In this document: one piece after another, positions 556-11,225 of the stretch
How the letters are laid out: each line of letters starts with the position of its first letter
Numbering within the stretch: position 1 is the stretch's first letter
Assembly (NCBI GenBank): GCA_026985515.1
Contig: JALSQH010000133.1
Location: 1-11,872, forward strand
Direction of reading: 5' to 3'
Length of the DNA stretch: 11,872 bases
Origin: a bacterium
GTDB lineage: Bacteria; JALSQH01
Translations under genes and position numbers: made by a program
Notes under the pieces: model-generated
What the model was told of the DNA's origin: nothing
What the model saw: the letters and a program-made list of their open reading frames with translations, nothing else
Databases searched by the model: none

Positions 556-3117
556 ATGAATAGAAATATCAAGAAGATTTTTTCTTTCCTGATACCTTTC
601 ATTTTTTCATTCTCCATTGTATCCTGCAATCTTCAGGAAGATAACTTCTGCAAGGGGGAACCAGTTACCGACGAAGCATTCTACAAAACTGAAATAGTTG
701 ATCCTGCAAAAAAAATTGCAGTCATGGTAAATGGGAGGAAAATTACCCCCTACCACGAAGATGGAGCAATTCTCACAGCAGGTCTGGGAGTTTATCCAAT
801 TGGCGCAGCAATTTCTCCCAATGACAGAATTGTGGCAGTTTCAAACAATGGAATAAAGGATGTGTTTTTCCTGAGAGATAAAGTTCCCGGCGTTGAAGAG
901 AGTAAAGCAGAGTTCTACTACAACAAAAAGTATCAGTCCATAACTTTCATTGATATGAAGGAAAAGAAGGTTATTTACAAGTTGCCTCTTCAGTCCCTCT
1001 TCATAGGCATAGTTTTCTCCCCCGATGGCCGCTACCTCTATGCAGCTGGTGGTGGCAGAGATGTTGTGAGGGTTGTCAGAATAAAGAACTACCCGGATGA
1101 AGGAACCGGTTTTGCAGTTGAGGTATCAGCTCCCATTCCTGTTCCCCATTATCCAACTGGTCTTGCAATCTCTAAAGATGGAAAAAGGTTGTATGTTACA
1201 CAGCTTCAGCACCACAACCTGAGCGTGGTAAATGTTGACCACTCCTCACCTGACTATGGGGAGATAATCACAACCTACACCACACAGTCTTATCCTTACG
1301 CTGTAATCCTGAGCGATGATGAAAAATACGCCTATGTTACAAACTGGGGTGGAAATTCTGTGACAGTAATAAACCTTGAGTATGGCAAGGCAGTTACAAA
1401 CATTCCTGTGGGGAAAAATCCGGAAGGTATGGTAATTTATGACGGAAAACTCTTTGTTGCAAATAGCGGTGATGATACCATCACAGTTATTGACCTCTCC
1501 ACCCTTGAAATTGAGAAAGTTATTTCGCTTCTCTCATCGCCTCAGGATAGAATTGGTATAACTCCTGTAGACCTTAAAGTTGATCCAGAGAGAAAATATC
1601 TCTATGTGGTATGCGCAGGGGACAACAAGGTAGACGTATTTGATATTGAGACCTACCAGAAAATTGGAAGCATTCCCGTGGGGTATTATCCCTCTGAAAT
1701 TGAGATCACCCATGATGGTAGCTACGCTGCTGTGGTAAATTCCAAGGGAAAAATGAGAAAGGATGCCTTTTACAATGTCGAATATGATGAAAATGGTAAA
1801 TTCAAGAAAGATTCTGAGGGAAATGTAGAATTCGTTCACATCGCTTCGCTCATTCAGGGAATGGTAAACATATTCAAAGTTCCAGACAGAGAAAAATTGA
1901 AAGAACTTGAAGAGGTGGTGGAGAAGAACAACTCCACAGCAAAAAGATTCTACAGTGACAGAGGATGTGATGTGTGGGACAACCCCATTCCATACAAACC
2001 GGGTGGTTACTCCCCGATTAAACATGTTGTCTACATTGTTAGAGAGAATAAAACCTACGATGTTGACCTGGGGGATCTGGGAACGGGCGATGGTGCACCG
2101 GAACTTGCACTCTTTGGAGAAAAGGTAACACCAAATCTCCATGCCCTTGCAAGGGAATTTGCCAATTTTGACAACTTCTACAGCGAACCTGAGCAATCTG
2201 TTCAGGGACATATCTGGATAGCGGGTGGATGGTCCACAGATTTTGATGAAAAAGTATGGATGGCAATGTGGGGAAGAGAGGAGGAACATCAGGTTTTTCT
2301 CCCCGTTATGCAACCAGCCAGCAAGCCACTTACAGGTTCCCTCTTTGAGTACTTCTATTCTCAGGGTGTGGACTTCAGAATTTATGGTGAAGTCACAGGG
2401 GTTCTGGATAATGCCTCTCAGAAGTTCTATGATCACATTGACTGGAAATACCCATCCTGGTCCCTCCACATAAACGATACAGACAAGGCAAAAGAATTCA
2501 TAAGGGAATTACAGGAAGGGATCTTTCCATCCTTTGTGTATATCTGGTTACCCAATGACCATACCTACGGGGCTACTCCGGGTAGACCCGATCCTGTCTG
2601 GATGATAAGCAACAACGATGAAGCAACAGGCATGATTGTTGAGGCTATCAGCCACAGCAAATTCTGGGATTCAACCCTCATTTTCATTTTTGAAGACGAT
2701 CCCCAGAGCTCTCCGGATCATGTCGATGCCCACAGAAGCATTTTGGTGGCAGTAAGCCCATTTGTAAAACATGGATACGTTTCACACGTTCACTACAGTA
2801 TCCCAAGTATTCATCACACAACAGAATTGATACTTGGTATCCCTCCAATGAGCAGGTACGACCAGTTAGCAGCACCCCTCTATGATGCCTTTACCATGAA
2901 AGCTGATTATTCAACATATACTCACATTCCCTCCCAGATACCTTTTTCCATCGTTCCTGAAGGCGCTCCCGGCTCAGAAGAAAGTAAAAAGATGAATTTC
3001 GACAAACCTGATCAGGCACCTGGACTTGGAAAAGTTCTCTGGAAATATGTAAAAGGTGAGGAACCCTTTCCTTCCCATATTGCCACTATGGATGAAGAGG
3101 ATGAGAGTGATAGGTGA
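556..3117 (+). CDS. Lipoprotein: YncE-like beta-propeller fused to AcpA-type phosphoesterase
   Basis: This 853-residue exported protein begins with a lipoprotein signal peptide: Lys/Arg-rich start, hydrophobic core and I-V-S-C with Cys24. Residues about 70-395 form a YncE/cytochrome-D1-like beta-propeller. Repeated strands of the kind S-P-D-G-R-Y-L-Y recur near 155, 200, 250, 290, 340 and 380, followed by segments such as N-S-V-T-V-I-N-L and D-T-I-T-V-I-D-L. A charged linker (about 430-460) leads to a phosphoesterase domain (about 485-800). Its likely metal and catalytic residues match the pattern known for acid phosphatase AcpA: E497-N498 (R-E-N-K-T-Y-D), Ser548 (E-Q-S-V-Q-G-H) as nucleophile, and D714-D715 (F-E-D-D-P-Q-S). 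N-D-H-T-Y-G (667-672) and H-V-D-A-H-R (722-727) also fit the family. The ATG has a strong ribosome binding site (AAGGAGAG). The family is known as a bifunctional YncE/alkaline-phosphatase fusion, but its substrate is not established. It probably hydrolyses a phosphoester at the cell envelope. It is the first gene of a three-gene unit. Confidence 0.9.
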   Translation: MNRNIKKIFSFLIPFIFSFSIVSCNLQEDNFCKGEPVTDEAFYKTEIVDPAKKIAVMVNGRKITPYHEDGAILTAGLGVYPIGAAISPNDRIVAVSNNGIKDVFFLRDKVPGVEESKAEFYYNKKYQSITFIDMKEKKVIYKLPLQSLFIGIVFSPDGRYLYAAGGGRDVVRVVRIKNYPDEGTGFAVEVSAPIPVPHYPTGLAISKDGKRLYVTQLQHHNLSVVNVDHSSPDYGEIITTYTTQSYPYAVILSDDEKYAYVTNWGGNSVTVINLEYGKAVTNIPVGKNPEGMVIYDGKLFVANSGDDTITVIDLSTLEIEKVISLLSSPQDRIGITPVDLKVDPERKYLYVVCAGDNKVDVFDIETYQKIGSIPVGYYPSEIEITHDGSYAAVVNSKGKMRKDAFYNVEYDENGKFKKDSEGNVEFVHIASLIQGMVNIFKVPDREKLKELEEVVEKNNSTAKRFYSDRGCDVWDNPIPYKPGGYSPIKHVVYIVRENKTYDVDLGDLGTGDGAPELALFGEKVTPNLHALAREFANFDNFYSEPEQSVQGHIWIAGGWSTDFDEKVWMAMWGREEEHQVFLPVMQPASKPLTGSLFEYFYSQGVDFRIYGEVTGVLDNASQKFYDHIDWKYPSWSLHINDTDKAKEFIRELQEGIFPSFVYIWLPNDHTYGATPGRPDPVWMISNNDEATGMIVEAISHSKFWDSTLIFIFEDDPQSSPDHVDAHRSILVAVSPFVKHGYVSHVHYSIPSIHHTTELILGIPPMSRYDQLAAPLYDAFTMKADYSTYTHIPSQIPFSIVPEGAPGSEESKKMNFDKPDQAPGLGKVLWKYVKGEEPFPSHIATMDEEDESDR

Positions 3118-4616
3118 ATAGACAGGAATTAGAATCTTTTCTGATTGATCTGAACAGGGGATTGAGGGTTTTTAGCTTTTACCCTCTCTCCCATCCCGTC
3201 ACAGGTAAAGTGGCGGAGGAACTCTATCAGAAAGTCGATTCCCTCATAAAGAAGTATGATAAACTCATTGAACTTGAAATATCGAGAAATTCCTTCTCCG
3301 CAGAGGGGGAAACGATTGAGAATCATCCCGCCCTTTCACCTCTTGCCTATGAATTCTTCAAAAGAAGAATTAAGAAACTCTTTATTCTCCCGGGAGTCAC
3401 TCCTCAGGAAATAAAATCTCTTCTCCTTGCCCTTTCAATGGACATTGACACCATTGAGAGAAGCGGAGGAATTGATAAGATTCTCATACAGTACAAGGTG
3501 CAGAACATCTGGATTAATGAAATAGACTTCTCCCTCAGACAGGAACTAAAGGAGCAGGGACCCCCAGTAAATCTAAACAACATCATAAAAACACCCCGTA
3601 CCGATACTGCAGAGTCAAAGGAACTACAGAATCTTCTTAATTCCTTACAGGACTACATTGACACACCCCGGTTCAAAGAAGCACTTAAAAGAATTAGAAG
3701 AATGGTTCTTCCATTTATTGAAAGCAAAGACTGGTATCAGGTTCTTTCGGTCCTCGAAGTTTTAAGCCACATTGCATCATCACCGTACATTTCAGATGAA
3801 AGCCGGGAAGTAGCGAGAAAAACTATCCTCTCAATAGTAAACAGAGATGTCATAGAGTTCCTTCTCCAGGAGTATCTTGCCTCACCACCGTTGAGGGCAC
3901 ATGAAATTGTTCTGATTTTTCAGCAACTTGGAAAAATCTCTTTCCCTTTTATTTTAAGGGAACTGATGGAAAATGAAGATAAATCTGAGAGAAAAAAATT
4001 GATCCAGTTATCATCAAAAATGGGGAAACCGATCCTGGACTACCTCTACAGATTGCTTGAGGATAAGAGATGGTATATCCTTAGAAACGTTCTGCTCATT
4101 ATAGGAGAAATTGAAGACCCGGAATCACTGCCATTTATTGAAGATTTCCTGTATAATCCAGATCTCAGAGTAAGCAGAGAAGCAATAAGAGCCTACACCA
4201 GGATTTCCCAGTCGAAGGGAATTGAAAAGCTGAGAGAAATATACAGGAAAAGCCCAAAGGAGAAGAAAAAAATTATAATCAATTCTCTGAAGATGATAAG
4301 AGATGATGCAGCCCTTGATTTTGCCGTGGAACTCTTTGACTTGGAGAAGAATAGAGAGTTGAAAGAAGCAATAGTAAAAAATATTCCCTACCTGAAGGAA
4401 AACGATAAGGCCACAAACTTCCTGAAATCTGTGATACTTAAAGACATAAAAAAAATTTCAGGTAAACCTGGAAATCTCGCCCTTGCAGGAATAGAGGCTC
4501 TATCTAAAATGGGAGAAAAGGGACTCAACACCCTGGAGGAGTTGAAGAGGGAAGGCAGGGGAAAGCTCCGAAGCCACATTGATCTGGTTCTGAAGAATGA
4601 GAGAACAGTATCTTGA
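3114..4616 (+). CDS. HEAT-repeat protein with an N-terminal domain shared with the adjacent HD-GYP protein
   Basis: This 500-residue protein has no signal peptide or membrane segment and is probably cytoplasmic. Residues 1 to about 145 form a domain also visible at the start of the next gene's product. Shared landmarks include F-Y-P-L-S-H-P (against Y-Y-P-E-G-H-P) and G-V-T-P-Q-E-I-K-S-L-L (against G-V-T-V-D-E-L-K-T-L-L). Residues about 180-490 are alpha-helical repeats of HEAT type. The clearest is around D317-K-R-W-Y-I-L-R-N, followed by I-G-E-I-E-D-P and then D-L-R-V-S-R-E-A. HEAT repeats usually act as protein-binding scaffolds. The start is GTG at 3114, overlapping the upstream stop by four bases (GTGA). 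An in-frame TAG lies directly before it, so no earlier start is possible, and alignment with the next protein supports this start. The ribosome binding site is weak, which suggests translational coupling. The likely role is as a partner or adaptor of the HD-GYP enzyme; this is inference. Confidence 0.8.
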   Translation: MNRQELESFLIDLNRGLRVFSFYPLSHPVTGKVAEELYQKVDSLIKKYDKLIELEISRNSFSAEGETIENHPALSPLAYEFFKRRIKKLFILPGVTPQEIKSLLLALSMDIDTIERSGGIDKILIQYKVQNIWINEIDFSLRQELKEQGPPVNLNNIIKTPRTDTAESKELQNLLNSLQDYIDTPRFKEALKRIRRMVLPFIESKDWYQVLSVLEVLSHIASSPYISDESREVARKTILSIVNRDVIEFLLQEYLASPPLRAHEIVLIFQQLGKISFPFILRELMENEDKSERKKLIQLSSKMGKPILDYLYRLLEDKRWYILRNVLLIIGEIEDPESLPFIEDFLYNPDLRVSREAIRAYTRISQSKGIEKLREIYRKSPKEKKKIIINSLKMIRDDAALDFAVELFDLEKNRELKEAIVKNIPYLKENDKATNFLKSVILKDIKKISGKPGNLALAGIEALSKMGEKGLNTLEELKREGRGKLRSHIDLVLKNERTVS

Positions 4617-5925
4617 ACTGATAAAGAATCTCGTTTCATCCATTAAAGGTTACAACTACTACCCTGAGGGACATCCCGCAAGGGAAAAACCAATTTACAG
4701 AGTACACGAATTCCTCACAAAATACCTCAACGATTCTCCCTCTCTTCGTATTGCAATTGTGGAGGATACACTGGTGGTGGAAGATATTCCACTATTTGAT
4801 GCGCAACCAGGTGTAATGGATCTCTACAACTCAATGGACCAGAGAAAAATAGGTGAAATCCTTTTCTTCAAAGGTGTAACAGTTGACGAACTGAAAACAC
4901 TCCTACATATTCTCGCCATGCCGGTAGAAGAATTTAAAAGTGTTGATGTTGACGAATACTTTCTCCAGAAAGGTGTCAAATTTATCGAGATTATTGACAA
5001 AGAGAGAGATCTGAAAAAGAAAAGCAAGAGGGTCTACACTCACGCAAAAAAATTCATTGTGGAAGCAATGAATGAAATAAGGCTGGGAAGAGTTCCCAGG
5101 ATAGAGGTGGCAGAGAGCATTGTTGCATCCTTTGACAGAATCCTGAAGAGAGATGAAAGTGCAATAATGGCACTTGTTATGCTTTCAGATTACGACAACT
5201 ACACATTCAACCACTCTGTTAATGTGGGTATCCTGACCCTAGCACTTGCACGGGAACTCCGCTGGAGCGATGCTGAGGAGGTGGGAATTGCAGGTCTTCT
5301 TCATGACATAGGCAAGACAAAAACACCAATTGAAATAATCAATAAACCCGGCAAATTAACACCGGAAGAGTGGGAAATAATGAAAAAACATCCCATTGAT
5401 GGTGCCAAAATAGTTCAGCAGATGGATAAATTCAAAACGGATGTGTCACTGATGGTGCTGCAGCACCATGTTAGATATGACAGAAGTGGATACCCCGATA
5501 TAAAAAATTCAAAAATGATAGAGGGAACGCACCTGATAACTATTTCCGATACATACGACTCCATGACGACACTCCGTCCATATCAGAGACGATACGATCC
5601 AAAGGAGGCTCTCGACATAATGGTGAACAAACTCAGAGGAAAAGCGCTTCATCCCCGCTATCTTGACACCTTTGTGGATATGCTGGGAATATATCCAGTT
5701 GGCTCATGTGTAAGACTGAAAAGTGGAGAAATAGCAATTGTTACAGGTTTAAACAGAAGCGACCCACTTCATCCTTCAGTTAAAATCATTCTCGGGAAAG
5801 ACGGGAAGTATCTTCCGAAACCAGTTGAGATTGATCTGACAGATAAAAGCGAAAGGAAAAAGAGGGAAATAATAACCCTGGTAAATCCCACCCTTCTCAA
5901 CATAGATGTAACGCGTTACCTCTAA
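4597..5925 (+). CDS. HD-GYP domain phosphodiesterase (probable cyclic di-GMP hydrolase)
   Basis: This 442-residue, probably cytoplasmic protein has three parts. Residues 1 to about 145 resemble the N-terminus of the preceding HEAT-repeat protein. Residues about 165-365 form an HD-GYP domain with the expected metal ligands: H206 (N-H-S-V-N-V), H236-D237 (L-L-H-D-I-G-K), H265 (K-K-H-P-I-D-G), H290-H291 and D318 (I-S-D-T-Y-D-S-M-T). The GYP signature reads H-H-V-R-Y-D-R-S-G-Y-P rather than the common H-H-E-R-x-D-G-x-G-Y-P. Residues about 365-442 match the C-terminal segment common in these proteins (G-I-Y-P-V-G-S-C-V-R-L). HD-GYP enzymes break cyclic di-GMP to pGpG or GMP. There is no receiver domain, so control probably comes through the N-terminal domain. 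It overlaps the upstream gene by 20 bases. An in-frame TGA six bases before the ATG fixes the start, and no strong ribosome binding site is present, again suggesting coupling. Confidence 0.9.
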   Translation: MREQYLELIKNLVSSIKGYNYYPEGHPAREKPIYRVHEFLTKYLNDSPSLRIAIVEDTLVVEDIPLFDAQPGVMDLYNSMDQRKIGEILFFKGVTVDELKTLLHILAMPVEEFKSVDVDEYFLQKGVKFIEIIDKERDLKKKSKRVYTHAKKFIVEAMNEIRLGRVPRIEVAESIVASFDRILKRDESAIMALVMLSDYDNYTFNHSVNVGILTLALARELRWSDAEEVGIAGLLHDIGKTKTPIEIINKPGKLTPEEWEIMKKHPIDGAKIVQQMDKFKTDVSLMVLQHHVRYDRSGYPDIKNSKMIEGTHLITISDTYDSMTTLRPYQRRYDPKEALDIMVNKLRGKALHPRYLDTFVDMLGIYPVGSCVRLKSGEIAIVTGLNRSDPLHPSVKIILGKDGKYLPKPVEIDLTDKSERKKREIITLVNPTLLNIDVTRYL

Positions 5926-6500
5926 GCATCCAGTTCCCCCAGAGCCTCAACAGCCGCCATCTTAATTCCCCTGTGTCTGGAACCAGCCAGTTTTATCAGG
6001 TATGGTTCAACTCTTGGATCTCCAAGTTTCCCCAGAACTCTTATGAGCTCTATTAAATAATCTGCATCTCTTGAGGAAAGTTCTTTGAGTAAAATTCCGG
6101 TTCCTCTTCTATCCTTCCATTTTTTCAACAACTGAAAAAGCTCTACCTTAACAACTTTCTCCTTCTCAAGCTGAAACACTTTCCAGAAAAATTTCATGCT
6201 ACGTGGATCATCAATCTCACTCAGAGCCCTTGCAGCTGCCGCCCTTTCATCCACATCGCTATCCACCGACCATAGAGAGTAGAGAGCATTGATCGCCTTT
6301 TCGCCACCTATTTTTCCCAGAGAATAGATTGCCTGTAACCTTATTACCTTATCCCCGTGCCTCAGGTTATCAATAACAAGTGGAAGCGACATCTTACCTT
6401 CCACTTTATTGAGAGACTCTGCAGCTGCTCTTCTGAGCTCTTCATCCCCTGATTTATCAATAATTTCCATGAGAACTTTTTTTCTTTCTTCAAGTCCCAA
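5922..6500 (-). CDS. Small HEAT-repeat protein
   Basis: This 192-residue protein is made almost wholly of HEAT-like helical repeats, about five in number. Examples are A-A-E-S-L-N-K-V, Q-A-I-Y-S-L-G-K-I-G, A-A-A-R-A-L-S-E-I-D-D-P-R, L-I-R-V-L-G-K-L-G-D-P-R and A-A-V-E-A-L-G-E-L. There is no signal peptide. I chose TTG 6500-6498 as the start because a strong ribosome binding site (GGAGGAGAG) lies seven to eight bases before it and the overlap with the upstream peptidase gene is then only 11 bases. An upstream in-frame ATG at 6569 would add 23 residues with no repeat character, overlap the peptidase gene by 80 bases, and has a poor ribosome binding site. It is the last gene of the rpsU-led unit and meets the HD-GYP gene tail to tail. 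Such proteins are scaffolds or, in some cases, lyases of the phycobilisome or E-Z type; nothing here supports the latter. Function is unknown. Confidence 0.8.
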   Translation of the reverse strand: MGLEERKKVLMEIIDKSGDEELRRAAAESLNKVEGKMSLPLVIDNLRHGDKVIRLQAIYSLGKIGGEKAINALYSLWSVDSDVDERAAAARALSEIDDPRSMKFFWKVFQLEKEKVVKVELFQLLKKWKDRRGTGILLKELSSRDADYLIELIRVLGKLGDPRVEPYLIKLAGSRHRGIKMAAVEALGELDA

Positions 6501-7434
6501 CTTCTCTCCTCCAGTCAGATACAGAAGGCACATTTCCACAGGAAGACGCTGAGGAAATGGCATCTTCAATTGCTCTTCCAGTTACTTCAATGGCTGCATA
6601 ACCAGCCACATCGGGAAGAACCCTTTTTTCTCCCGCTGAAACCATTATGAGAACATCCCCATCGGCGCTGGAACTTGGTGGAGAAAAAAATCTTCCAAAG
6701 GACCCCGAGGCAATTCTTCCGGCAATGAGCAGATCCTCCCTCTCCATAGTACCATCTGTTATTATCACAACAAGATTTGTGTTTTCCAGGGGGGAATAAA
6801 AAGGAGCTGTCTCAGATAAATTTACAAATTCCTTTTCACCCCTGATTCCTGCTATTATTTCGCCTGATGATCCCAGAACATTGCCAAAATTATTTACAAC
6901 CACAAGAGCAAAAACTGTTACGTCCCCCACCCTCTTCCATGCAGCCCCAAAACCGCCTTTGGTCGCTCTTTCATACCCGAAAATTTTCCCGGCAGTGGCT
7001 CCTGTTCCCGCACCAACACTGCCGGTTTCAAACTCCTCCTTTGCAGAGGCTGCAGCCAAATATCCATCCTCAACATCAGGATAGCTTTCTTTACCAACAA
7101 GAAGATCAAAAATTGCAGCAGTGGGAACAATGGGTACCCTGATCCTGTTTCTTATCAGTAATCCCCGCCCCTGCTCCTTCATATACAACTGTACCCCTAT
7201 GCCACTTCCAAGACCAAAGGCGCTTCCGCCTGTGAGACATATTGCATCAATTTTCCTCACAGAGTGACCCAGAAAGAGGGAATCAAATTGCCTGGTGGAT
7301 GAGGCGCTACCTGTAAAGGCAGCTACAGCTTTAACAGGCTTATCAAAGATTATGGCTGTTACGCCTGTTCCATCTTCGCATCTGGTCTGATGACCAATTT
7401 TTACCCCATTAATGGGGGAGACTTTTTTGCCCAT
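6490..7434 (-). CDS. P1 family peptidase (DmpA-like aminopeptidase / amidase)
   Basis: This 314-residue protein matches the P1 (DmpA/L-aminopeptidase-D-esterase) family, Ntn-fold enzymes that cleave themselves into two chains to expose a catalytic N-terminal residue. Recognisable motifs are G-V-K-I-G-H near the start, C-L-T-G-G-S-A-F-G-L-G (about 66-76), T-G-S-V-G-A-G-T-G-A-T-A-G-K (about 137-150) and K-G-G-F-G. The likely self-cleavage point is within L-E-N-T-N-L-V-V, making Thr219 the nucleophile of the second chain, followed by I-I-T-D-G. The nucleophile is a prediction by family comparison. Family members hydrolyse N-terminal amino acids, amides or beta-peptides; the natural substrate here is unknown. 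ATG at 7434 overlaps the rpoD stop codon by one base (TGATG), with GAGGA just upstream, so it is preferred over the adjacent in-frame TTG at 7437. There is no signal peptide, so it is probably cytoplasmic. Confidence 0.9.
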   Translation of the reverse strand: MGKKVSPINGVKIGHQTRCEDGTGVTAIIFDKPVKAVAAFTGSASSTRQFDSLFLGHSVRKIDAICLTGGSAFGLGSGIGVQLYMKEQGRGLLIRNRIRVPIVPTAAIFDLLVGKESYPDVEDGYLAAASAKEEFETGSVGAGTGATAGKIFGYERATKGGFGAAWKRVGDVTVFALVVVNNFGNVLGSSGEIIAGIRGEKEFVNLSETAPFYSPLENTNLVVIITDGTMEREDLLIAGRIASGSFGRFFSPPSSSADGDVLIMVSAGEKRVLPDVAGYAAIEVTGRAIEDAISSASSCGNVPSVSDWRREVGT

Positions 7435-8978
7435 CAATCCTCAACAAAATCTCTCAGCTCTTTGATCACATCCGGATGTCTCAATTTTTTAAGTGCCTTC
7501 CCCTCAATCTGTCTGATTCTTTCCCTCGTTACATTGAAAAGTGCACCAACCTCTTCCAGGGTTTTATCATCAGCCTTTCTATCCAGTCCAAACCTCTCCT
7601 TTATTATGGCCCTTTCCCTGGGTTGCAGATGTTCCTGAAGAAGCTGGCTTACCTTCCTCTGAAGATCCCTTTTAATTGCAACTTTTTCAGGAGTGGGAGT
7701 CGTTATATCCTCAATAAAATCCTGTATCTGACTGTCACCATCATCTCCTATGGGTGCATCGAGCCTCACAATACTCTGATTTGCCATCATAATTTTCTCA
7801 ACTTTCTCTGGCGTGAGCCCAACTTTATCAGCAATTTCCTTGGGATCAGGATTTCCACCCATTTCCTGAGCTTTCTCCTGGGTTACCCTGTTTATCTTAT
7901 GAATATTCTCTATCACATGTACAGGAATTCTAATTGTCCTTGACTGATCAGCAATGGCTCTTGTTATTGCCTGTCTTATCCACCATGTTGCATAGGTGCT
8001 GAACTTAAAGCCCTTTTCGGGATTGAACTTTTCCACTGCCCTGAGCAATCCCATATTTCCTTCCTGAATCAGGTCGCTTATGTCAAGTCCCTTGTTGATA
8101 TATTTTTTGGCAATACTCACCACAAGTCTCAGGTTACAGCTTACAAACCAGTTCTTCTGCTCCTCAAGAGAATCAAGCAACTTAAAAAGGGAAAGTACAT
8201 AACTCTCAAACTTTGAGGGATTCTGTTCAATCTCTCTCTCAAAAACCTCCTCTTCATGTTTGGCAGAAAAATAATCAAGCATCAACTTTTCAAATTCCTC
8301 CTGCTCCACCCCATACTGCATCAGAAATTCCCTTTTATCCAGCAACCTGTTGTAATTACCGAAGAAATCATCAAGGTCCTTTTCCTTGATCTTGAACCTT
8401 TCTGCAATTTTTCTTTTTGTATTCTGTATCTCCTCGTATCGCCTGTAATAATCTTTTACGGTCTCAGCAAATTCCCTCAAAACTCTGTGATCAAATTTTA
8501 TCTTCCTCAGATGATTTGCCATGTGCTCCTTAACTTTTTTTGCTCTTAACTTCAGCTGCTTCCTGGCTTCCTTTGTGAGGTTTTCGCTGTGAAGTTTTTC
8601 CTGAATTTCTCTCCACTCTGCATACCATTTTTTGGCTTTTTCCATATGCTTGAGAAGTTCCTCTTTCTTTTTGCCTTCCTCCACATCTCCCTCTTCGTCC
8701 TCACCTAAATCGGCAAAGATTTCTTTCAATTTTTTCCTTCCTGCCACGATATCATCATACAGTTTTATCACTTCCCGGATCACAACAGTCAGTCTCAACA
8801 TAAAATTCCATACCTTCCTTCTTTTCTCCTCAATATCCTCTGCAAGTTTTTTCTCATCTTCAGGGGAGAGGACCGGCAAATTTGACATCTCCTTAAAATA
8901 TGACTCAAGGCTATTGTAACTCCGATCCTCTTCTTCTTCATAGATCTCAAAATCATCCCTGAATTCAAAATCATCCAT
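7434..8978 (-). CDS. rpoD: RNA polymerase primary sigma factor (sigma70 / RpoD)
   Basis: This 514-residue sigma factor directs RNA polymerase to housekeeping promoters. Region 1.2 lies at about 20-55 ([12 protein letters not shown]). A Lys/Glu-rich, helical non-conserved region follows, to about 265. Region 2 is at 275-345 ([14 protein letters not shown] and [11 protein letters not shown]), region 3 at about 345-405, and the sigma finger at about 406-430 (L-D-A-P-I-G-D). Region 4, with its helix-turn-helix, is at about 445-505 (T-L-E-E-V-G, then [10 protein letters not shown]). Only about 20 residues, very acidic, precede region 1.2, so a normal region 1.1 is missing. I chose ATG 8978 because AAGGGG lies at good distance and a gap of 20 bases separates it from dnaG. 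A GTG at 9020 would add 14 residues and overlap dnaG. It is co-transcribed with rpsU, yqeY and dnaG. Confidence 0.97.
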
Positions 8979-8998
8979 ACTGCGCACCCCTTTTCTGG

Positions 8999-10750
8999 TT
9001 ACAATTCTCCCCCACTCCACACACCAGCTCTCAGGTCATTGAGAATCTGCTGCTTCTTTTTCAAAAGCTCCTTTGCCTTTCTGTGGTCGCCCATTCTCTC
9101 AGCCTGCTGAATTTCCCTGGAAAGTTTTTCCTGCATGAGCTTTATCTTTCTCCTCTTCATACCCTCAATCAGATCACCAATCAGCTCCTCAGTAGCGGCA
9201 AACTCCTTTGAGAGGAGATAACTCACAATCTCAGGCATCCTTTCATTATCGCTGCTCACAAGATAGCCAGGAGAATCTTTTCCAGACTTAACAAGGGTAA
9301 ACCATTTTTCAAGAAGATCTCTTAAAATGGGAGAAATGAGGTATCTACCTGCATCCCTCAACTCGCTTTCCTCAACAAGGGATGGATTCTTAAGAAAAAG
9401 CGCCACAAACATCTCCTCTTCAGGGTAAAAATTCCACTTCTCCACTTTTTCTGGACTGGATGAACTTCCCTTTTCCAGCTTTACCTTCACTTTGAGAGAT
9501 TCCTCACTTATCCCCAGAAATTCTGAAGCTCTTGCAATGTAAAGTTCCCTCAAGACGGGATCCTTTACCTTACCAATCAGTTCAGCAACAATACCTGCAC
9601 ATTTTGCAACTCCTTCAGGTGTTTTTCCATATCTGTGGAGATGATAACCCAGATAAAAATCAAAACCATGAAGAGCCTTATCTCTGACGCTTTTCCACCC
9701 TTCTATACCCTCTTTTCTGATAAATGAATCGGGATCCTCACCTTCGGGCAGTCTCATCACAAAGTGTTCCACTCCCTCCACCGTAAGCAACTCAATGGCT
9801 CTCAGAGTTGCCTTTACTCCGGCATTATCACTGTCAAAAGTGATATAAACTCTCCCTGCCAGTCTGGAGAGAATTTTTATCTGGTCTTCCGTAAGCCCGG
9901 TACCAAGAGGAGCAACGCTGTTCTTCACCCCATTCTGCCAGAGGGAGATAACATCCAGATATCCCTCAACCAGAAACACCTCACCTGTTCTGGATATTTC
10001 AGATGCTGCTTTATTTAACCCGAAAAGGGTTTTACTCTTGTTGAAGAGAGGTGTCTCTGGAGAATTCAGATACTTGGGAGAATCACTGCTCTCCGTTATT
10101 ATCCTTCCACCAAAACCTACTATTCTGTTTCTCTGATCATAAATCGGGAAAATTATTCTATCTCTGAACCGGTCATAATAACTGTCTCTACCTGCTATGA
10201 TAAGCCCTGCCTTTTCGGCAAGTTCGTCGCTTATCTTCTGCTTTCTCAGATATTCCCTCAGATCCCTCCATCCCGGTGAAGCATAACCGATTCCCCATTC
10301 TCTTATTACCTCTTCAGTCAATCCTCTTTTTCTGAGATAATCCCTTGCCTTTTCTCCTGCCGCGGTTCGCAGATTGTCCTGGAAAAATTTTTCTGCCACC
10401 TTCAGTACATTCTGAAGTGTGGCTCTTTTAAGTTCATTCTCCCTCTCTCTTCTGGAAAATGTAAGCTCAACACCTGCCTGATCAGCCAGCTCCCTGACAG
10501 CCTCAATAAAACTCAGACCCTCAATCTGCATCAGAAAGGTTATGGCGTTACCCCTTGCACCGCATCCGAAGCAGTAGTAGAGCTGTTTTTCCGGACTTAC
10601 CGAAAATGAAGGAGTTTTTTCAGAGTGGAAGGGGCAGAGACCAAAGTAATTTTTCCCCACCCGCTTCAGCGTTACATATCTGGAAACCAGATCAACTAAA
10701 TCGATTCTTTCAAGTATTTCCTCTATTTTGTCATCAGGAATGGAGCCCAA
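8999..10750 (-). CDS. dnaG: DNA primase DnaG
   Basis: This 583-residue primase makes the RNA primers for DNA replication and is recruited by the replicative helicase. The N-terminal CHC2 zinc-binding domain is complete, with C39, H42, C60 and C63 (C-P-F-H and C-F-G-C). The RNA-polymerase basic motif is seen near 191-216 ([12 protein letters not shown] and G-F-G-G-R). The Toprim domain carries E262 and D266 (V-E-G-Y-L-D) and D306/D308 (F-D-S-D-N-A-G), the acidic residues that bind magnesium. The last 150 or so residues are the helical helicase-interaction domain and are less conserved. The start is TTG at 10750: the same frame has a stop codon 12 bases upstream, there is no ATG nearby, and AGAGGT provides a ribosome binding site. 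The length is usual for the family. It lies 9 bases downstream of yqeY. Confidence 0.97.
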
Positions 10751-10759
10751 AGGCGACCT

Positions 10760-11215
10760 CTACCTGCTTTCTTTTTCAAGAAGTTCCCTCACAAGGAGGT
10801 TTACTTCCTTACCGTCCGCCCTTCCCTTAACTTTTGCCATCACGGCTCTCATCACCTTTCCAAAATCTTTCTGAGAATGGGCTCCCAACTCCTCCATTGT
10901 TTCTTTAATCAGAGAAATGAGTTCCTCACGACTGAGCTGTGGTGGTAACAATTCCTGGAGGATGGAAATCTCCTCTTCTTCAGCCCTGGCAAGATCCTCT
11001 CTCCCGCCCTCGCGATACTGCTCCACAGATTCTCTTCTCTTTTTTATCATGGATGAAATTACCTGCATCACCTCATCATCACTGAGGGGATGCATTACTT
11101 CTACTTCCCTGTTCCTGATCTCAGATTTTAAGAGACGATAAACGCTTACCCTTTTCTTATCTCCAGATTTTAGAGATTCCTTCAATAATCTGTCTATTTC
11201 TTCCTTTAAAGCCAT
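10760..11215 (-). CDS. yqeY: GatB/YqeY domain protein
   Basis: This 151-residue protein matches the full length of the YqeY family, which resembles the C-terminal tRNA-binding helical tail of the GatB amidotransferase subunit. Signature stretches are K-R-x-S-V-Y-R-L-L-K-S-E-I near the start, K-K-R-R-E-S-V-E-Q-Y-R-E-G-G-R (about 59-73), E-L-L-P-P-Q-L-S (about 87-94) and the terminal F-G-K-V-M-R-A-V-M followed by G-R-A-D-G-K-E-V. By family comparison it may take part in tRNA-dependent amidation or tRNA handling; its exact role is not settled. ATG at 11215 is preferred over the neighbouring TTG at 11218, with AGGGA upstream. It sits 10 bases after the rpsU stop. YqeY between rpsU and dnaG is a known arrangement in many bacteria. 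Confidence 0.93.
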   Translation of the reverse strand: MALKEEIDRLLKESLKSGDKKRVSVYRLLKSEIRNREVEVMHPLSDDEVMQVISSMIKKRRESVEQYREGGREDLARAEEEEISILQELLPPQLSREELISLIKETMEELGAHSQKDFGKVMRAVMAKVKGRADGKEVNLLVRELLEKESR

Positions 11216-11225
11216 CAAACTTTCC

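Follow-up and report, generated by a model that had tools for sequence, protein, structure and literature searches.

HD-GYP enzymes are common, and the means by which they are controlled are often obscure. The locus studied here raises the question of why a predicted HEAT-repeat protein and a predicted HD-GYP protein, encoded by overlapping genes, begin with similar unnamed domains, and what this may mean for the enzyme. The window, the whole stretch of 11,872 nucleotides that was analysed, is contig C133 of a 2.36-Mb draft genome, from a phylum with only two genomes in the searched set. The features discussed below are as follows; the two paired genes were confirmed at the coordinates first given for them.

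3114-4616, + strand: gene of the HEAT protein, 500 aa
3114-3533, + strand: unnamed N-terminal domain, copy 1, residues ~1-140 of the HEAT protein (BLASTP, profile-profile comparison, AlphaFold2)
3534-4613, + strand: linker and C-terminal HEAT repeats of the HEAT protein (HEAT_2)
4597-5925, + strand: gene of the HD-GYP protein, 442 aa
4597-4616, + strand: overlap of the HEAT gene end with the HD-GYP gene start, 20 nt; relatives also have an overlap or a minimal gap here
4597-5028, + strand: unnamed N-terminal domain, copy 2, residues ~1-144 of the HD-GYP protein (BLASTP, profile-profile comparison, AlphaFold2)
5179-5628, + strand: HD-GYP-type catalytic domain (HD_5, alignment with 4mcw, conservation)
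5922-6569, - strand: convergent HEAT-only gene, 215 aa, TTG start uncertain (HEAT_2 E 8.8e-34)

Upstream of the pair lies a gene for a predicted lipoprotein (556-3117, + strand) with a YVTN/lactonase-type beta-propeller and a PF04185 phosphoesterase domain; this gene overlaps the HEAT gene start by 4 nt and precedes the pair in the sister genome (L006) as well. A row of S58 peptidase, rpoD-type sigma factor, dnaG and yqeY genes occupies 6490-11218 on the minus strand.

Homology of the two N-terminal domains

We found that the N-terminal ~140 residues of the HEAT and HD-GYP proteins are homologous. An alignment by eye had originally suggested a similarity of ~145 residues, and BLASTP bears this out (E 9e-8; 148 aa aligned, 22% identical). 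The N-terminal regions reached a Smith-Waterman score of 94, whereas 5000 shuffles averaged 31 and never exceeded 68; a separate set of 2000 shuffles had one outlier at 84, and C-terminal control segments scored only 28-32. Upon comparing profiles of 43 HD-GYP relatives and 44 HEAT relatives, a check that the original prediction had proposed, 134 columns were aligned with a probability of 99.3 and E 3.8e-20. Additionally, the profile of each set recovered the other set, and the remaining matches were only further HEAT- or HD-type genes.

AlphaFold2 models of each domain singly, the second proposed check, reached mean pLDDT values of 90.8 and 88.9. Both models have their secondary-structure elements in one common order (helix-helix-strand-strand-helix-strand-helix-helix-helix-strand), the HEAT copy having one additional short strand relative to the HD-GYP copy. 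The first two helices are long, with the Y-P-x-x-H-P loop between them, at Y23-P24-x-x-H27-P28 in copy 1 and Y22-P23-x-x-H26-P27 in copy 2. The features first described are present: this motif, a strand close to residue 55 and the G-V-T-x-x-E-(I/L)-K-x-L-L helix. The BLASTP result, the shuffles, the profile E value and the matching models together indicate that the similarity is real and not due to chance. Chance or a merely general helical resemblance, to which a pairwise identity of just 22% might point, can be practically dismissed in the face of the profile E value, the shuffle scores, the common predicted fold and the mutual recovery of the two profile sets.

The C-terminal parts also agree with the original reading, in which one copy is joined to HEAT repeats and the other to an HD-GYP-type domain. 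The product of 3114-4616 is a HEAT-repeat protein by its tandem repeats, which exceed the curated cut-off of Pfam HEAT_2 (E 2.8e-18, 66.4 bits vs 27.7) and fall in three stretches, the best at residues 312-382. The HD-GYP protein matches HD_5 with E 8.2e-25 (87.9 bits vs a curated cut-off of 27.2).

Relation of the domain to known families and folds

Next, we investigated whether the N-terminal domain belongs to a known family. None of the 43 + 44 domain copies scanned against Pfam rose above a curated cut-off, and only scattered weak matches were seen; NCBIfam gave no model match in the N-terminal part of either protein, and the PADLOC scan gave no name for it. DUF3391 (PF11871), which precedes HD-GYP in V-cGAP-type proteins, is likewise an uncharacterised domain ahead of HD-GYP, but it differs by sequence: just 3/43 domain copies match it, the best at E 0.07 and far under the cut-off, so we reject membership of DUF3391.

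Domain profiles searched against solved structures gave scattered matches and no convincing relative, and those to Octarellin V.1, a designed protein (E 5e-6), and to a linked cytochrome c555 trimer (E 2e-4) were judged spurious. Upon searching with both models, the best Foldseek E was 0.026 and the best VIA-align Z 3.8-3.9, the latter to unrelated proteins, which is not proof of a new fold. PelD of Pseudomonas aeruginosa, a GAF-domain receptor of cyclic di-GMP, was the top Foldseek row for both models (E 0.026-0.062, TM-score <0.2), and GAF domains were frequent among the Foldseek rows, none of them significant. A distant relation to GAF domains is conceivable, and the lack of GAF rows from VIA-align does not count against it. 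Across ~110 diverse copies, the loop is conserved at Tyr (90%), Pro (67%), His or Asn (93%) and Pro (66%); the other most conserved features are a G-x-x-x-I/L/V-x-x-F strand, G-(L/V)-(T/S)-x-E-E/D-L and a final G-I-x-H-I-x-V strand.

Distribution of the domain and conservation of the gene pair

We observed the domain by profile search in 91/386 sampled bacterial genomes, about a quarter, which span the bacterial domain and mostly represent different families, and in 51/192 genomes of an unselected set. The named records that contain it include Geobacteraceae and other Desulfuromonadales, a Dadabacteria bin, Nitrospirota and a deltaproteobacterial bin that is Myxococcota by taxonomy. A profile search of the window's own genome found two copies only, both in the HEAT/HD-GYP pair.

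The original prediction had asked whether the two genes are neighbours elsewhere, and this is the case: among the 99 HD-GYP genes with the domain in the fetched loci, 84 immediately follow a domain-HEAT gene on the same strand, counts that include two genomes twice under different locus numbers (L006/L120 and L007/L135). In most of the 84 pairs the two genes share 1-14 nt or are no more than 5 nt apart, and the larger overlaps arise because starts were taken mechanically and are over-extended. Every upstream partner scanned by Pfam has HEAT repeats, all but one above the cut-off. HEAT plus HD-GYP is the commonest two-gene form of the domain in this sample. Furthermore, in L146 and L177 HD genes with a weak domain signal also follow a domain-HEAT gene; in L177 (3936-9012) Ser/Thr kinase, domain-HEAT and HD genes stand in a row, overlapping on one strand.

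Seven of the 15 HD-GYP genes without a partner are explained by loss of the partner at contig ends (L048, L067, L137, L164), by a partner in pieces (L008, L165) or by the window itself in a short locus (L005). The other eight are truly unpaired (L039, L042, L040, L050, L051, L055, L057, L064), and six of them (L040, L050, L051, L055, L057, L064) constitute one 440-aa Desulfuromonas-type subfamily. We also note that in L040 and L050 a response-regulator gene, encoded on the same strand, stands ahead of the unpaired gene (near 5990 and 5974, respectively). The unselected set of 192 genomes contained no unpaired HD-GYP copy among those with readable upstream sequence and an unbroken partner. Analogously, a domain-HEAT protein occurs at about 20 loci without an HD-GYP neighbour. 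Together with the eight unpaired HD-GYP copies, this indicates that pairing is not strictly needed by either protein.

The domain is also found in other architectures. A 1204-aa protein (L121:3340-6954) has the order GGDEF, AAA_16, shared domain, HEAT, which places the domain and a diguanylate cyclase in one chain. A DUF4388 protein (L160:4975-6558) has the domain at residues ~257-384, with no HEAT or HD found there. HEAT without HD-GYP and the GGDEF-AAA and DUF4388 contexts thus mark the domain as a general signalling part.

Age of the duplication and co-inheritance

Upon building a tree of 116 domain copies, we observed that the HEAT and HD labels need 4 changes vs 37.6 in shuffles, and 2 changes without eight long-branch rows, in which case a single HD-linked clade is not rejected (p-AU 0.67). 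The tree rests on 146 columns and many forks are open, so single branches are not to be read. HEAT-linked and HD-linked copies form essentially two groups, which implies that the split is old and that both copies have been inherited together, one of each kind per locus. The duplication originally proposed for the domain thus stands, as an old event; a recent local duplication is rejected on the label changes.

Additionally, the divergences of the two N-terminal domains are correlated over 45 pairs (r 0.51, with 0/2000 permutations as high), and the partial r is 0.39 when the HD domain is controlled for. Common descent alone can account for part of this correlation.

The HD-GYP enzyme

We next examined the catalytic part. 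The product of 4597-5925 is predicted to be an HD-GYP protein: in addition to passing the HD-superfamily cut-off, it contains all of the metal ligands (H206, H236, D237, H265, H290, H291, D318) and an HHxxxxxxGYP motif, HHVRYDRSGYP. A generally inactive HD-GYP part is rejected, since all seven ligands are complete in 91/99 relatives. The paired HD-GYP proteins of L129, L130, L166 and L167 have altered metal-ligand or GYP residues, and perhaps these degenerate partners bind rather than cleave.

The domain aligns with that of PmGH from Persephonella marina (4mcw) at E 6.6e-27. PmGH, V-cGAP3 (5z7c) and Bd1817 (3tm8) have the same catalytic domain, with its HD, metal-ligand and GYP residues, but alignment does not extend beyond the HD-GYP part, and all three are without the N-terminal domain and the HEAT partner. 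The position aligned with E185 of PmGH, which we take to be its third-metal glutamate in the structure numbering, is Tyr202 in the window and Tyr in 91/99 relatives, and a two-metal site is therefore expected.

From family membership, we infer hydrolysis of cyclic di-GMP, with c-di-GMP or cGAMP as candidate substrates, and the protein probably destroys a cyclic-dinucleotide signal. The same genome has 7 GGDEF and 4 PilZ matches, so cyclic di-GMP signalling is likely present.

A third, convergent HEAT-only gene

The original account did not include the HEAT-only gene at 5922-6569, whose stop overlaps that of the HD-GYP gene by 4 nt. Most Desulfuromonadales loci, as well as the sister genome (L006) and L168, have a homologue at this position and in this orientation, often with an overlap of 4-14 nt; within Desulfuromonadales the gene is thus a third conserved member of the neighbourhood. 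Because any HEAT repeats tend to align readily, the conserved position is the stronger evidence for this third gene.

The same repeats as in the C-terminus of the HEAT partner and in the whole third gene occur in HEAT_2 scaffolds such as NblB and phycobilin-lyase-like proteins. The NblB equivalog score is 14 vs a cut-off of 300. To our knowledge, this N-terminal domain has not been described in any of the known HEAT_2 proteins of bacteria.

Discussion

Conserved neighbouring genes with a common domain suggest an undescribed two-protein signalling unit. We propose that the products of the two genes form an intracellular signalling unit of two subunits, an HD-GYP cyclic-dinucleotide phosphodiesterase and a HEAT-repeat protein. 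Both would begin with a common alpha/beta domain of ~140 residues that arose in an old duplication and has been co-inherited since. The two N-terminal domains would most likely form a heterodimer, perhaps one that holds a ligand at the conserved Y-P-x-x-H-P loop, and the HEAT arm would bind a further protein and thereby control or position the enzyme. What the data establish is the homology, the conserved pair with its gene order and its adjoining or overlapping genes, the ancient two-way split, the correlated divergence and the complete set of active-site residues. We regard a unit in which the paralogous domains pair and the HEAT protein controls or places the phosphodiesterase as evenly balanced between right and wrong, its contact, ligand, substrate and effect being what we infer. 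The fusion to GGDEF in L121 and the GGDEF and PilZ matches of the genome also speak in its favour. Counting against it are the eight unpaired HD-GYP copies, the about 20 domain-HEAT genes without HD-GYP and the few degenerate HD sites.

The main rival reading, which appears rather unlikely to us, is that the domain is a small-molecule or protein sensor that reads the same cue separately in both proteins, which would not touch. Its occurrence with HEAT alone, DUF4388 and GGDEF-AAA is what a general input domain would display, and the conserved loop may be a binding site; a separate sensor alone, however, leaves the near-constant HEAT-linked neighbour directly upstream of the HD-linked copy unexplained, and Foldseek and VIA-align matched no ligand-binding fold. 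We consider it improbable that the domain is mainly a homodimerisation module, with the genes kept together through a common pathway and perhaps the same membrane or polar target. HD-GYP proteins are commonly dimeric, and gene pairs are often conserved through common function without contact, yet two separately kept paralogue groups, each tied to one partner, are a better fit to a heteromer.

Returning to the two-subunit reading, the kinds of enzyme and scaffold are known, and no description of the common domain or of the conserved pair was found in the literature searched, outside which most subscription journals lie; three papers that mention both HEAT repeats and HD-GYP were judged unrelated. 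A broader version, which we put forward tentatively and at somewhat under even chances, is that the ancient duplicated domain builds an obligate heteromer of HEAT scaffold and cyclic-dinucleotide phosphodiesterase in many bacterial groups, and has been recruited to a diguanylate cyclase and other signalling proteins. Overall, if the proposal is true, a domain present in about a quarter of the sampled genomes would give HD-GYP enzymes a testable HEAT control subunit, and it would provide a name and a likely role for many genes that are listed only as HEAT-repeat or HD-domain proteins, including those of culturable Geobacter relatives.
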